Below, one piece after another: positions 9,194-14,719 of a stretch of DNA of 64,000 nt. Source of the stretch: Ancylomarina sp. DW003 (lineage in GTDB: Bacteria; Bacteroidota; Bacteroidia; Bacteroidales; Marinifilaceae); assembly GCF_029029505.1 (NCBI RefSeq), contig NZ_JAKJSD010000007.1, positions 1 to 64,000 of the forward strand. Reading direction: 5' to 3'. Under the pieces are notes generated by a model that was not told where the DNA came from, did no database searches, and saw nothing but the letters and a program-made list of their open reading frames with translations. Each line of letters starts with the position of its first letter. Within the stretch, counting starts at the first letter, position 1. The translations under genes were made by a program, and so were the position numbers.

Positions 9194-10486
9194 CTAATTT
9201 TTTAAGTAGTTCTTGAAATCGTGATAAGAGTTAGCCATTTTAATACTCGACTTTTCTTTAATCAAGCAAGATTTAAGATATTCAGGAATTTCAACTTTAG
9301 TGTCAATAACTTCTTCAACGACATCTAGAAATTTTGCAGGGTGGGCTGTTTCTATGAATACACCCAGTTCATTTTTTGTAGCCAGTTCTTTTTTCAAGCC
9401 CAGATAAGCAACTGCACCATGGGGGTCCAGAATATAGTCCGATTCTTTATAGACTTTCTTCATAACCTCTTTGGTTTGCTCATCGTTAAATGAAGCACCT
9501 TTTAAATCTTCACAAATTCGAGGGTGATTTTCTTGATAAAGTGTCATCATTCTATCAAAATTACTTGGAGCACCTACATCCATTGCATTCGATATGCTTT
9601 GGATTGAAGCTTTGCTTTTGTATTCTCCGGTAGATAAATAGTCAGGAACAACTTTGTTTATATTAGTAGAGGCTACAAATCTCTTTATTGGTAAGCCCAT
9701 TTGCTTTGCAATTAGCCCGGCAGTAAGGTTACCATAGTTCCCACTTGGAACAGAAACAACAAGATCTTTATTCTGCTTTTTTAGCTGACCATATGCGTAG
9801 AAATAATAAAAACTTTGAGGAATCAAACGTGCAATATTAATCGAATTTGCAGAACTCAATTTCATATGCTTGTTCAAGTCATCGTCTTGAAATGCTTTTT
9901 TTACAAGAGCTTGACAATCATCAAAACTTCCGTCAATTTCTAGTGCTGTAATGTTGTTGCCAAGTGTGGTTAATTGCTGTTCTTGAATTTGGCTGACTTT
10001 ACCCGATGGGTATAAAATAACAACTTCAATATTCTTAATACCAAGGAAGCCATGTGCAACGGCACTACCTGTGTCACCGGAAGTAGCAGCAAGAATCGTG
10101 ACTTTTTCCTCACTTTCCTGAGCAAAATAACTTAGGCATCTCGACATAAAACGTGCGCCTACATCTTTAAAGGCGCAGCTAGGCCCATGGAAGAGCTCCA
10201 TAGAATAAACATTAGGCTCGAAAGAAACGAGTGGAGTAGGGAAGTTAAGCGCCTCGTCGCAGATTTCCTTTAGTTTATCAGAAGGAATATCATCACCTAA
10301 AAAGTATTTTGAAACTTCGAATCCAATTTCAGCCAGAGACATATTTGGAAGCTTGTTTATAAATGACTTGTCGAGTTGTGGTATGCTTTCGGGATAAAAT
10401 AAGCCTCCGTCAGGAGCCAGTCCTTTTATCACAGCGTCTTTAAAGCTTACAGAGAGTTCTTTATTATTTGTACTATAGAATTTCAT
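9194..10486 (-). CDS. thrC: Threonine synthase
   Basis: Converts O-phosphohomoserine to threonine with PLP, the last step of threonine synthesis. The 430-residue protein has the Thr_synth_N region (about 1-80) and the fold-type II PLP domain. The PLP lysine is K107 in SCAFKDVGARF; the phosphate-binding glycine loop is at SGNYGNLTAG. It is the third gene of the leftward thr operon, 37 nt after thrB. Confidence 0.97.
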   Translation of the reverse strand: MKFYSTNNKELSVSFKDAVIKGLAPDGGLFYPESIPQLDKSFINKLPNMSLAEIGFEVSKYFLGDDIPSDKLKEICDEALNFPTPLVSFEPNVYSMELFHGPSCAFKDVGARFMSRCLSYFAQESEEKVTILAATSGDTGSAVAHGFLGIKNIEVVILYPSGKVSQIQEQQLTTLGNNITALEIDGSFDDCQALVKKAFQDDDLNKHMKLSSANSINIARLIPQSFYYFYAYGQLKKQNKDLVVSVPSGNYGNLTAGLIAKQMGLPIKRFVASTNINKVVPDYLSTGEYKSKASIQSISNAMDVGAPSNFDRMMTLYQENHPRICEDLKGASFNDEQTKEVMKKVYKESDYILDPHGAVAYLGLKKELATKNELGVFIETAHPAKFLDVVEEVIDTKVEIPEYLKSCLIKEKSSIKMANSYHDFKNYLKN

Positions 10487-10523: not shown

Positions 10524-11453
10524 TTATTCTAATATTCTAACACCATTGTTGCTTACCTGAGAAGCATAAATGAAATAAGGAATTGTGGTTTTAGAAAATA
10601 CCTTATTCATTGCTGAACTCACAGCTTTCGCTTTATTTTCACCTTCGCATAGGGCGAAAACAGATGGACCTGATCCTGAAATGCTACAGCCTAAGGCTCC
10701 TGCTTCAAGTACAGCTTGTTTTAAGTTATCAAACTCCGGAATTAAAATTTTACGTTGTTTTTCTACAATATGGTCTTCTAGCGAACGACCAATCAAATTA
10801 TAGTCTGATTGATGCAAACCGGATATTAAGCCTGCAACATTTCCCCATTGACGAATTGCTTTTTTCAGATCAACTTGAGCAGATAATAATTCTCTGGCCT
10901 CTTTGGTCTTAATTTCAATTTGAGGATGAATAACAACGCACCATAAATCCTTTGGCGATTCAATTTGAATTACATCCAGAGGATCGTAGGCACGAACAAT
11001 ACAAAATCCACCTAATACTGTTGGTGCAGCATTGTCAGCATGTGCATCGCCCGAAGCTGCAACTTCGCCCTGCATGGCAAAATCAACCAATTGTTCTCTA
11101 CTGTATGGTTTCCCAAGTAACTCGTTGGCCGCAACCACTGCACCTGCTGCACTTGCAGAGCTTGAACCAATTCCACTACCTGGTTTAATGTTTTTATGTA
11201 TCTCAATATCGAAACCTTGATTGCTACCCAGATCATCAAGCATAGCCTGAATAGCAACACCGGCAACATTTTTCGATGCTTCTGTAGGTAGATTTTCATA
11301 TCCCTCAATAGGTTTGATACTTATCTTGTTTAAATCATTCTCACTGAGAATCATCTCATCACCAATTCCATCGATGGCAAACCCCAGAATATCGAATCCA
11401 CATCCGACATTTGAAACACTACCTGGTGCAAATACTTTTATACGCTTATTCAT
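10524..11453 (-). CDS. thrB: Homoserine kinase
   Basis: Phosphorylates homoserine with ATP. The 309-residue GHMP-family kinase carries the ATP-binding motif PGSGIGSSSASAAG at about 91-104 and the C-terminal GHMP motif around GCSISGSGPSVFAL. It lies between thrA (45 nt upstream) and thrC, the order of the pathway enzymes' classical operon. It ends with a short NNGVRILE tail typical of Bacteroidota ThrB. Confidence 0.97.
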   Translation of the reverse strand: MNKRIKVFAPGSVSNVGCGFDILGFAIDGIGDEMILSENDLNKISIKPIEGYENLPTEASKNVAGVAIQAMLDDLGSNQGFDIEIHKNIKPGSGIGSSSASAAGAVVAANELLGKPYSREQLVDFAMQGEVAASGDAHADNAAPTVLGGFCIVRAYDPLDVIQIESPKDLWCVVIHPQIEIKTKEARELLSAQVDLKKAIRQWGNVAGLISGLHQSDYNLIGRSLEDHIVEKQRKILIPEFDNLKQAVLEAGALGCSISGSGPSVFALCEGENKAKAVSSAMNKVFSKTTIPYFIYASQVSNNGVRILE

Positions 11454-11498: not shown

Positions 11499-13931
11499 TT
11501 ATTTAGAAGAAATGCTTATGATATCACCGAATATTCCGGAGGCTGTCACTTCAGCACCAGCACCCGCGCCTTTTATAATCATTGGCTGATCTTTATACCA
11601 AAGTGTACTTAAAGAAACAACACTGTCTTTTCCGTCGATATTGTACAGTGGATGGTCAGCACCAACAGCTTTCATACCAACACTTGCTTTTCCATCTTTA
11701 AAGCTAGCAACATATCTAAAGCGAATGTTTTGTTCCTTCATTTGATTTCGCCAATCTTCAAAAAAATCTTTCTTCTCAATTATTCGTTCTATTAACTCTT
11801 CTTTAGTTTTAGATTCAAGACAATAATCTGGCACCATCGGTATGAGTTCAACATCCTCAGCTTCTAGCTTATAGCCTGATTCACGAGCCAGAATTAATAG
11901 CTTACGAAGTACATCAACACCATTTAAATCAAGCTTTGGATCTGGTTCAGTAAAACCTTCATTCATTGCAAATTTCAAAGCGTCTTCAAAACTATATCCC
12001 TCAATAAATTTATTCATAATGTAGTTTAGACTACCCGAAACAACAGCCTCTATGCTTGTAATCTGATCGCCAGTACTTGTAAGGTAATTAATCGTGCTAA
12101 TGACCGGTAAACCTGCTCCAACATTACTTTCATATCTAAAGTCAACATTATTCTTCTTAGCTGTAGCTTTTAATTGCTTATAGCTTTCAAAGTCAGATGA
12201 AGCTGCGATCTTATTACATGCGACTATCGAAGTTGTTGTCTTTAAAATTTGCTCGTAAACATCACTTACATTTTGGCTTGCTGTAATATCTACGAAAATT
12301 GAATTTCTTAGATTTGAATCTTTGATATTTTTAATAAACTTATCTATATCTGCTACTTCACCTTCAGTGTCAAGTTTGTTTTTCCAATCATTTATTAATT
12401 TTTCATCCTTTGCAAAGATCATTTTACGGCTGTTACTAACAGCTCTAATGATGAGGTCAATACCATTTTCTTCAATCAAATGTTCATGTTGATTCTTAAT
12501 GTGTTCTAAAAGTTTACCACCTACATTCCCTACACCGGCAATATGCAGGTTGATTTTTTTGTAAGTCGACAAGAAAAATTTCTCATGTATAACATTTAAG
12601 GCTTTCTTCACATCCGTAGTACGCACCATGAAAGTGATGTTTAGCTCATTTCCACCTTGCGCCGTTGCACGAATATTTAAACCATTTTTACCTAGTATAC
12701 CAAAGAGTTTTCCTGCAATGCCAGGTGTGTAGCCCATATCTTCACCAACAACGGCAATTATTGACAAATCAGGCTCTACTTTTGGCTTGTTTACATGCTG
12801 TATTGCTATTTCAGCGGTAAACTCTTCTTCTATTATATCACAGGCACTGCTGCAGTCGTCTTCGTGAACCGCAACACTCATACTGTGTTCCGAAGATGAT
12901 TGCGTAATAAGGCTGACATTAATTTTCTGGTTAGCTAAGCAAGCAAATAGTCGTGCAGCAAAACCACTTATTCCAACCATACCACTACCCGAAAGAGTGA
13001 TTAAATTAATATTATTTATGGATGAAAGACCTCTCACAGTCGTTCTTTCGGCTTTGGGTTCAGAACTTATTAGAGTTCCCTTGGCTTCCGGTTCAAAAGT
13101 GTTTTTAATGAGAATATCAATTTTCTTTTGTAGAACCGGAGTTAATGAAGGCGGGTACATGACTTTGGCTCCAAAGTGAGATAATTCCATGGCTTCCTGA
13201 AACGACATCTGTTCAATTGGAATCGCTTGCGAAACCAGTCGTGGATCGGCAGTGTACATACCACTTACATCTGTCCATATTTCCAATTGTTTGGCATTTA
13301 GTGCAGCGGCTAATATCGAGGCAGTATAATCAGACCCACCACGCCCTAATAAAGTGGGGTCGCCTTTTTCATTTGATGCAACGAAACCTGGAAATATTGC
13401 AAGCCTAATTTCGTTTTTAATGGCATTTATTCTTCTGTAGCTTTCATCTCTATTAATGAGAATACCCTTATTTTCATGAGTTTTGATGTATTCTTTTGAA
13501 TCGTAATATTTTGCATCTAAATTAGATTGTTGAAAATATGAAGTTATAAGCTGAGATGCAAGTTCCTCTCCTAAACCAAGAACGCGACATTTAATTTTTT
13601 CAGGAACATCCTGAAGGATAAATACACCTTCTAACAGATTTGACAGGTCTTCAAATTTATCTTTTAACCAGTTTTGGATGGTTTCATTTAGTTTTAATTC
13701 TTTCGATAGTTCCAAATGTCGATTATATAAACTTTCAACAGTTAGTTTGTAAACTTGGTCTTTAGATGAAGCCTGATCTAAGCTATTGGCTAATTGATCT
13801 GTAACACCACCAAGAGCAGAGACTACTATAATTGCAGCTTCCTTTTTGTCGATTCGACTTACTATTTGTTTTACTTTCTTGAGGTTTTCAGCTTGGGCTA
13901 CCGAACTACCTCCAAATTTTAGGATTCTCAT
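11499..13931 (-). CDS. thrA: Bifunctional aspartokinase / homoserine dehydrogenase
   Basis: Catalyses the first and third steps from aspartate to homoserine. The 810-residue protein has the aspartokinase domain (1 to about 290, starting MRILKFGGSSVA), two ACT-type regulatory domains (about 310-455, for feedback by threonine or related amino acids) and a homoserine dehydrogenase domain (about 460-808) with the nucleotide-binding GVGNVGG and a lysine/aspartate catalytic region around DPKLDLNGVD. It is the first structural gene of the thr operon, with an attenuator and leader peptide directly upstream. Confidence 0.97.
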   Translation of the reverse strand: MRILKFGGSSVAQAENLKKVKQIVSRIDKKEAAIIVVSALGGVTDQLANSLDQASSKDQVYKLTVESLYNRHLELSKELKLNETIQNWLKDKFEDLSNLLEGVFILQDVPEKIKCRVLGLGEELASQLITSYFQQSNLDAKYYDSKEYIKTHENKGILINRDESYRRINAIKNEIRLAIFPGFVASNEKGDPTLLGRGGSDYTASILAAALNAKQLEIWTDVSGMYTADPRLVSQAIPIEQMSFQEAMELSHFGAKVMYPPSLTPVLQKKIDILIKNTFEPEAKGTLISSEPKAERTTVRGLSSINNINLITLSGSGMVGISGFAARLFACLANQKINVSLITQSSSEHSMSVAVHEDDCSSACDIIEEEFTAEIAIQHVNKPKVEPDLSIIAVVGEDMGYTPGIAGKLFGILGKNGLNIRATAQGGNELNITFMVRTTDVKKALNVIHEKFFLSTYKKINLHIAGVGNVGGKLLEHIKNQHEHLIEENGIDLIIRAVSNSRKMIFAKDEKLINDWKNKLDTEGEVADIDKFIKNIKDSNLRNSIFVDITASQNVSDVYEQILKTTTSIVACNKIAASSDFESYKQLKATAKKNNVDFRYESNVGAGLPVISTINYLTSTGDQITSIEAVVSGSLNYIMNKFIEGYSFEDALKFAMNEGFTEPDPKLDLNGVDVLRKLLILARESGYKLEAEDVELIPMVPDYCLESKTKEELIERIIEKKDFFEDWRNQMKEQNIRFRYVASFKDGKASVGMKAVGADHPLYNIDGKDSVVSLSTLWYKDQPMIIKGAGAGAEVTASGIFGDIISISSK

Positions 13932-13960: not shown

Positions 13961-13995
13961 AAAAAAAAAGCCTGCAGAATAACTGCAGGCTTTTT
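13961..13995 (-). terminator. Threonine-operon attenuator (intrinsic terminator in the leader)
   Basis: Between the leader peptide stop and thrA, AAGCCTGCAG and CTGCAGGCTT form a perfect 10-bp stem with loop TTATT, followed on the minus strand by nine T. The left arm and loop (13974-13983) can instead pair over 10 nt, including two G-U pairs, with the end of the leader coding region at 14025-14034 (GTGGAATAAC). That gives an antiterminator that would compete with this hairpin. The terminator is 30 nt upstream of the thrA start. Confidence 0.85.
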
Positions 13996-14020
13996 ATAAA
14001 ATATTTTGTATTTATAAGCT

Positions 14021-14113
14021 TCACGTTATTCCACACGAGGATTTAGGCATCGTAATAATCGAGCCCATGGTAATCATCGTTGTTGTGGTCAATGTAAAGT
14101 TCATTCTCTTCAT
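14021..14113 (-). CDS. thrL: thr operon leader peptide
   Basis: A 30-residue open frame (ATG at 14113, TGA at 14021) that starts MKRMNF and contains eight Thr, including four in a row at residues 9-12, five Met and four Ile. All three amino acids are products of the aspartate pathway. E. coli ThrL has the same design (starts MKR, Thr- and Ile-rich). Ribosomes stalling at these codons would expose 14025-14034 for antiterminator pairing, while ribosomes reaching the stop codon, one codon after that segment, would cover it and let the attenuator form. The start lies 12 nt after a promoter-like -7 box, so the mRNA leader is very short. The mechanism is inference from sequence. Confidence 0.85.
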   Translation of the reverse strand: MKRMNFTLTTTTMITMGSIITMPKSSCGIT

Positions 14114-14125
14114 TTTTGTTGTTGA

Positions 14126-14156
14126 CAAATATGAGGATAAAAATGAGAATAGCAAG
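14126..14156 (-). promoter_or_regulatory. Probable thr operon promoter
   Basis: On the minus strand CTTG, 19 nt, then CATATTTG, one mismatch from TAnnTTTG. Transcription would start only a few nt before the leader-peptide ATG at 14113. Confidence 0.5.
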
Positions 14157-14329: not shown

Positions 14330-14719
14330 ATGAAAGTATTATTATTAGTTCTATTGGCTGGTGCTGTTTTAACCTTGCTTCTTACATATCTTGGAAAATT
14401 GCTTTTTCCAAAAAAGAATGAAGAGGAGGAACCTGCTAGTGAACCATTGGAAGAATGTTGTGGGGCTCACGAAGTATGTGAAACGGACTTGTTGAATAAG
14501 ATGTCTGAAGAAATCATTTATTATGAAGATGAAGAATTGGATGTTTATAGAAATTTTGAAGAAAATGATTACAATGATGATCAAATCGATGAATTTCGTG
14601 AAGTGCTGTATAGCCTGAAGGAAAAAGAGATTGAACCTTGGCTAAAAAGCCTTGAACTAAGACATATTAATTTACCATCAACGATTAAATCAGAAGTGGT
14701 TTTCATGCTAGTGAAATAG
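14330..14719 (+). CDS. Small membrane-anchored acidic protein
   Basis: A 129-residue protein with one N-terminal hydrophobic helix (residues 2-24) followed by a very acidic region (about 32-85, many Glu and Asp) that includes two cysteines in ECCGAHEVC. The C-terminal part, from about 85 on, looks like a compact helical domain (QIDEFREVLYSLKEKEIEPW). Bacteroidota genomes carry similar short proteins of unknown role; I do not assign a function. It lies divergently from the thr operon and has its own promoter. Confidence 0.65.
   Translation: MKVLLLVLLAGAVLTLLLTYLGKLLFPKKNEEEEPASEPLEECCGAHEVCETDLLNKMSEEIIYYEDEELDVYRNFEENDYNDDQIDEFREVLYSLKEKEIEPWLKSLELRHINLPSTIKSEVVFMLVK

Follow-up and report, generated by a model that had tools for sequence, protein, structure and literature searches.

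A candidate threonine-codon attenuator of thrABC in Ancylomarina and its lysine-codon relative at lysC-lysA

We analysed a 64,000-nucleotide stretch of the genome of Ancylomarina sp. DW003 (the window) and found, ahead of its threonine operon, what appears to be a ribosome-mediated attenuator of thrABC. On our reading, to which we give a probability of about 0.84, this element responds to charged tRNA-Thr, possibly also to tRNA-Met, and is a paralogue of the attenuator of lysC-lysA that was likely copied within Ancylomarina. The parts of the element, its homology, its codon content, and its distribution among the searched genomes can all be read from sequence.

Along the minus strand, the locus consists of a TTTG box, a Thr-rich leader frame, a terminator, and then thrA-thrB-thrC. 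These genes encode a bifunctional aspartate kinase/homoserine dehydrogenase I (thrA, 11499..13931; NF006959, 948.6 bits, cut-off 726), a homoserine kinase (thrB, 10524..11453; TIGR00191, 235.4 bits, cut-off 168.25), and a threonine synthase (thrC, 9194..10486; TIGR00260, 299.3 bits, cut-off 167.1), all on the minus strand. An intrinsic terminator thus positioned between the leader and the first structural gene is what an attenuator calls for, and the distance from its T run to the thrA start is 29 nt. On the opposite strand, a divergent 129-aa frame (14330-14719, +) begins ~200 nt from the promoter-like box of the leader and has no NCBIfam match at E 1e-10.

A preliminary description of this region, made from the letters alone, had proposed a 30-codon leader with a promoter 12 nt before its start. 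The frame is as described: MKRMNFTLTTTTMITMGSIITMPKSSCGIT, at 14021..14113 on the minus strand, holds eight Thr codons (four of them consecutive), five Met codons including the start, and four Ile codons. The promoter-like box CATATTTG (14126..14133, minus strand) lies 12 nt ahead of the first ATG and resembles the Bacteroidota -7 consensus, TAnnTTTG. Nevertheless, the true start is probably the second ATG, at 14104, giving a likelier frame of 27 codons plus stop, MNFTLTTTTMITMGSIITMPKSSCGIT (14021..14104, minus strand). We favor this start because box-to-start gaps then agree with those of the 25 other elements in our comparison, which comprises 22 elements before lysC and four before thrA, and because the thrA frame of genome G004 opens only at the MN codon, a start found in all four thrA copies. 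Here the box is defined as whichever TTTG or CTTTA comes last in a stretch of 45 nt. Counted to the first ATG, three thrA copies have a gap of 11-12 nt and the remaining 23 elements one of 19-28 nt; counted to the second ATG, the gap in those three is 20-21 nt. To the probable start it is 19-21 nt over all four thrA copies and 20-28 nt in the 22 lysC copies, so that the box stands 19-28 nt before the probable start in all 26 elements.

The codon content of the leader points to the product of the operon. Thr accounts for 8 of the 29 codons after the start (binomial P 3e-5 against the long frames of the window), and the four thrA leaders contain 8, 8, 5, and 8 Thr codons (P 3e-5, 3e-5, 5e-3, and 3e-5). 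Internal Met codons number 4, 3, 4, and 4 in the same leaders (P 0.002-0.02; 3e-3 for the window leader). Ile codons are not enriched, either in the window leader (P 0.24) or across the four (P 0.1-0.7). Of the three aspartate-pathway products that the leader was suggested to sense, threonine has clearly enriched codons, methionine has enriched codons in all four leaders, and isoleucine has none in excess; sensing of Met and Ile by the thrA leader is a guess. The 22 lysC leaders have 3-5 Lys codons each, which in any single leader is at most a weak enrichment (P 0.012-0.34), and the motif K(R/H)NK occurs in every one of them.

The switch itself can be described as four strands, all read on the minus strand. 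The intrinsic terminator (3:4), GCCTGCAG-TTATT-CTGCAGGC-T9, spans 13961..13990, with its stem at 13990-13970 followed by T9. A terminator with a T run had been reported here with a 10-bp stem; the terminator and its T9 are present, but the stem counts 8 bp in its G+C-rich part and 13 bp as predicted with A-U pairs. Strand 3 (13973..13983), made up of the terminator loop and the start of the 3' arm, pairs with 14035-14025 to give the predicted antiterminator (2:3). The 10-nt alternative pairing noticed earlier, 14034-14025 with 13983-13974, is there with two G.U pairs, and one more pair at 14035/13973 brings it to 11 bp. Strand 2 (14016..14035), with the core TGTGGAATAACGTGAAGCTT, takes in the last part of the leader, stop codon included. 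In the minimum free energy (MFE) folds, strand 1 (14085..14099, leader codons 5-10), the protective arm, forms the 1:2 helix with strand 2, in which the leader start CTTTACATTGACCAC (14099-14085) lies opposite GTGGAATAACGTGAAG. Between them lies a central hairpin within the leader frame (14046..14065); over the four thrA copies it has 19 of its 20 cells paired and shows one two-sided change. Because the antiterminator strand also finds a partner at the leader start, the layout is the classical 1:2, 2:3, 3:4 arrangement and not the reduced, "simple two-state switch" first proposed; nor, given the 1:2 helix and the preserved central hairpin, is the stated lack of a longer multi-stem leader supported. 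The 165-nt fold has an energy of -45.1 kcal/mol, compared with -23.2 +/- 3.2 for 200 dinucleotide shuffles (z -6.8), and the terminator is kept in 26 elements (22 lysC and four thrA) with small variants in the stem.

A DNA search of the DW003 genome with this element returned a second match (G000:C34:153119-153178; E 8e-8, 75% identity), which precedes a monofunctional aspartokinase followed by a diaminopimelate decarboxylase, i.e., lysC-lysA. The aspartokinase passes TIGR00657 and the decarboxylase TIGR01048; the best-scoring model for the former is lysine-sensitive aspartokinase 3, at 388.7 bits and below the cut-off of 455. The leader at this second locus is MRTTFTTMHKQVKRNKHY. The 20-nt core of the two elements differs at one base, TGTGGAATAAYGTGAAGCTT, and the arms GCCTGCAG..CTGCAGGC are common to both. 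In G004, moreover, the thrA leader (L033, MNSALTT..) and the lysC leader (L047, MNLPLTT..) begin alike, in DNA ATGAACTYRSCATTGACCACAT, so the similarity between thrA and lysC elements is not confined to the 3' half but extends to strand 1. By this sequence comparison, we consider the thrA element paralogous to the attenuator with Lys codons that precedes lysC-lysA in its own genome.

The lysC form is much the more widespread of the two. At E <= 2.5e-10, a covariance model of strand 2 plus the terminator (R1), built from 18 sequences, matched 25 places spread over 22 of the 56 family genomes, with the next best match at 3.5e-5; 18 of these strong matches are members of the model and seven are new. 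Twenty-two precede an aspartokinase (lysC) start, in six genera. The other three precede thrA (G000, G003, and G004) and fall in one genus, Ancylomarina (g1), the only genus in which the thrA form was seen; a fourth thrA copy comes from Ancylomarina sp. 16SWW S1-10-2 (L091), and a full-length thrA match was not found in the Ancylomarina genomes G001 and G002. In an order-wide sample of 295 genomes, R1 at E <= 1e-5 matched only the genome of the window itself. A pattern for the core matched 17 places, against one for a reversed control, and 12 of these are elements described here (nine lysC and three thrA); five core-pattern matches in genus g13 (L038-L042) are coding-like and have a different context, and were excluded from the attenuator count. 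R1 matches above E 1e-5 in the family genomes were set aside as well: the eight that were looked at (L122-L129) lack the terminator pattern, and several others above that value are the palindromic terminator read on the opposite strand.

Most likely, the Ancylomarina lineage acquired a copy of the lysC attenuator ahead of thrA, in which Thr/Met codons took the place of the original sensing block. We infer the direction of the copying from the distribution, because the 66-nt tree of the 3' half is too short, with 10 of its 17 inner branches open. With moderate confidence, we favor a fuller account in which the widespread Lys sensor of lysC-lysA was copied before thrABC in Ancylomarina, the Lys block gave way to Thr/Met, strands 2-4 stayed near letter-for-letter the same, and another Thr leader, one still present in related genera, was displaced. 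Alternatively, the core and terminator might be a mobile or common module, with leader peptides of independent origin and no duplication of a sensing attenuator. The dissimilar sensing blocks of the thrA and lysC leaders, and a tree with so many open branches, are consistent with such convergence. However, the common core extends beyond the terminator and takes in strand 2, the leader starts in G004 match, box-to-start spacing is similar in thrA and lysC elements, and all 25 strong copies stand before aspartokinase genes, with none added elsewhere by the order-wide sample. We consider this alternative unlikely.

Both the leader frame and the alternative pairing are kept at the three other thrA loci of Ancylomarina, and a ribosome-sensing attenuator of the thr operon, as originally suggested, is the best reading of the region. 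Taken singly, the helices receive mixed statistical support. Across the four thrA copies, 97.7% of cells are paired in 2:3, compared with 36-50% when the strands are slid, and 91.7% in the named 1:2 and central helices together, compared with 31-46%. As to covariation, which the preliminary description proposed to test, 2:3 and the terminator each show a two-sided change, and the 1:2 helix, with 90.4% of cells paired, shows none, the one such change in the combined 1:2 and central set lying in the central hairpin. The change in 2:3 is from C-G to U-A in one relative, and sliding by +3 likewise yields one. In the terminator, the L091 stem reads CCTACAG/CTGTAGG in place of CCTGCAG/CTGCAGG, a change from G-C to A-U on both sides; 3:4 pairs were left uncounted in the alignment, where MAFFT displaced the G004 thrA sequence by one base. 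Because this alignment has four rows, many shuffles reach the observed pair counts: 57-364 of 500 equal those of the 1:2 and central helices, and 114 or more of 500 equal those of 2:3.

The larger set of elements gives a similar picture. The leader start pairs with strand 2 in all 18 elements folded whole, weakly so in the lysC elements of G001 and G002. Against shuffles, strand 1 reaches the 5% level in 13 of the 18, and strand 2, for the mutually exclusive antiterminator predicted as 2:3, in 11 of the 18. Among the 26 elements folded to strand 2, the partner of strand-2 position -15 forms G-C in 10, A-U in 8, and G-U in 1, with none in 7, and that of position -19 forms U-A in 6, A-U in 6, G-C in 4, and G-U in 4, with none in 6. 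Standard pairs at given 1:2 columns thus differ between clades; these were read off the folds themselves and so are support rather than an independent test. When strand 1 was swapped between clades, the own partner was best in just 3 of 18 cases, leaving covariation unsupported, perhaps owing to the likeness of the strands. For protective 1:2 pairing within the leader frame, 9 of the 26 elements, which are related sequences and not independent trials, reach 0.05 against a synonymous-codon null and 23 are at <=0.15; the lysC elements of G001 and G002 clearly fail (0.75 and 0.99), and G026 stands at 0.25. RNAalifold on a MAFFT alignment of the 18 whole elements, in which strand 1 was misaligned, recovered the terminator only, with 0 of 11 pairs changed on both sides.

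From these parts we infer transcription, stalling, and readthrough as follows. When charged tRNA-Thr is scarce, the ribosome would stall on Thr codons 7-15, on or just beyond strand 1, and break the 1:2 helix. Strand 2, now free, would capture the terminator loop (2:3), and RNA polymerase would continue into thrA. Once at the stop codon, a ribosome would cover strand 2 and let the terminator (3:4) form; with no ribosome, strand 1 would tend to hold strand 2, and the terminator would again form.

A rise in readthrough via leader translation when the amino acid is scarce is predicted only by our mask folding. This model assumes a 29-nt ribosome footprint and energies, follows the terminator along its growing 3' arm, and has no transcription kinetics; it covered 10 of the 26 elements. 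In 9 of these 10, an early stall at Thr or Lys delays the terminator relative to the state with no ribosome, by 1-5 nt, and for the four thrA elements a ribosome at the stop codon causes no delay. The modeled terminator of the window element wins at +5 without a ribosome or with one at codon 30 or the stop, at +8 for stalls at Thr codons 7, 9, 10, 11, 12, and 15, and at +6 for codon 21. For the thrA element of G003, the values are +8 for stalls at codons 9-12, +6 at 7 and 15, and +5 at 21 or with no ribosome. For G004 thrA, stalls at codons 6 and 7 give +8, at 12 +6, at 13 +5, and at 15 +4, and the state with no ribosome (+6) is later than the stalls at 13 and 15; here and in the window element the model has the antiterminator already present at +4 without a ribosome. 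The effect in L091 thrA is 1 nt (+6 vs. +5 for most early stalls), and none is seen at codons 18 and 21. Early Lys stalls move the terminator from +4 or +5 to +6 to +10 in the lysC elements of G032, G012, G010, and G024, and from +4 to +6 or +5 in that of G016. Stalls at late Lys codons (15 or 16) bring no delay, nor do those at the last Lys codon of the first four of these lysC elements, and a ribosome at the stop delays the terminator by 1 in that of G024. The lysC element of the DW003 genome shows no effect in any ribosome state.

It is also conceivable that the terminator is weak and constitutive and that the leader peptide has a translational rather than a transcriptional role. Such a role would suit a terminator and leader that are certain as sequence only, and a thrA start that lies 29 nt beyond the T run. 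Against this, part of the terminator also takes part in the alternative pairing, which four thrA copies preserve, with its C-G to U-A change, and the mask model ties codon position to formation of the terminator. We think this very unlikely. A metabolite- or tRNA-binding riboswitch (T-box-like or lysine-box-like) that works the same 2:3/3:4 switch beneath an incidental leader frame would account for the part of the leader kept at the DNA level between genera, but it is the least credible reading, as the codons track the operon product (Thr before thrABC and Lys before lysC-lysA) and no Rfam family, the Lysine riboswitch and T-box included, reaches its gathering score in the window or in six related loci (L100, L101, L035, L033, L115, and L112). 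Kinship with the Rfam Thr_leader family (RF00506) was likewise set aside, since the score of 34.6 bits falls short of the gathering score, 55.

Regulation of this kind, ribosome-mediated attenuation, is known, and the functional counterpart of the element preferred here is a classic: in E. coli, the Thr-rich leader thrL precedes a bifunctional thrA, with a terminator before thrA and the logic of a stalled ribosome. The Ancylomarina element shares the Thr-rich leader, the thrA type, the terminator, and, on our reading, the stall logic, yet it lies below the RF00506 threshold, its nearest relative found is the lysC-lysA leader, and Met rather than Ile codons are enriched in its leaders. The trp, his, leu, and phe attenuators of Proteobacteria and Actinobacteria have the 1:2, 2:3, 3:4 layout. 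Sensing codons lie in or beside strand 1 in them and in our element alike, which differs in belonging to Bacteroidota and in serving two amino acids from one scaffold with different sensing blocks. The hisS/hisZ leader peptides of Firmicutes (PMC2965389), in the part of that paper available, are alike leaders at paralogous genes tied to gene duplication; unlike in the lysC/thrA pair, the amino acid sensed (His) is unchanged. According to the same portion of that work, Naville and Gautheret (2010), leader-peptide systems had not been shown beyond Proteobacteria and Actinobacteria before their Firmicutes case, an atypical ermC leader aside.

Within Bacteroidota, the available text of a 2021 study of Flavobacterium psychrophilum (PMC9723704) mentions strong clues that leader peptides upstream of amino-acid operons act in attenuation; neither a thr or lys element nor a scaffold is named in that text. 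Excerpts of a Bacteroides map mention frames reminiscent of leader peptides (PMC7366714), and those of a Sinorhizobium study suggest that an aspartate dehydrogenase gene is preceded by a leader peptide rich in Thr/Lys (PMC10117765). In the mostly open-access literature searched, as far as its accessible passages go, leader-peptide attenuation in Bacteroidota receives brief mentions only, and neither a lysine-codon attenuator of lysC nor this thr element was found. It is unusual in its own right for lysC to have a lysine-codon leader; Shewanella lysC has a lysine riboswitch, listed as its control in the passages seen (PMC2659441). Apparently new in the searched literature is a single RNA switch scaffold for two amino acids, with the thr copy seemingly derived from the lys copy. 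If true, an amino-acid attenuator has changed its specificity, and attenuators may be modular, with a fixed switch and an exchangeable codon cassette. The two loci form a natural pair in one genome, a near-identical switch with Lys codons at lysC-lysA and Thr codons at thrABC, and the pair allows a direct test of whether specificity lies in the codons alone and of how a sensor is re-aimed in evolution.

Other Bacteroidales have a different Thr leader upstream of thrA (L006-L010, L012-L015, L017, L021, L023, L024, L093-L099, and L131-L137). In most cases its run of Thr closes with ..TTTPWG or ..TTTTTL and lies over a tight CCCYTTNGGGG hairpin; two of these leaders (L023 and L024) are diverged and without the Thr run. 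Of 25 thrA loci checked outside Ancylomarina, 13 have this hairpin and keep this other Thr-type leader. The pattern ACNACNACCCYTTNGGGG matched seven places in 7 of 198 order genomes (reversed control, four), six of them before thrA and one before thrB. The bare hairpin ACCCCTTGGGGGG had matches in 8 of 119 genomes (control, one), four before thrA and four elsewhere. No intrinsic terminator was noticed by eye at these other Bacteroidales Thr leaders, and, as a guess, they perhaps act Rho-dependently.

Lysine leaders vary as well. In genera g11 and g15, diverged lysC leaders (L058, L059, L060, L069, and L083; for example, MKTRYTNNYKQMMCMQRLFAG and MARFMNSYKQMMRKRRAPAG) have a K(Q/H)MM block and an AG* end, with a different terminator 3' of them; these leaders are reminiscent of the YKQ block found in the lysC leader of Ancylomarina. 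A Lys-rich frame and a terminator occur together in 3 of the 15 aspartokinase upstream regions examined, namely, in L152 (G005) of four from the same family and in L138 (G057) and L141 (G051) of 11 from other families. In L138 and L141, the short Lys-rich frames upstream of lysC are MSNKQFFMQTICMKQMVITMKKQTHKQAVDALIKSA and MKGLKNIVKIKQVKRIKPVYKRM, each followed by a terminator. Attenuation of lysC through lysine codons may thus be wider in Bacteroidales.
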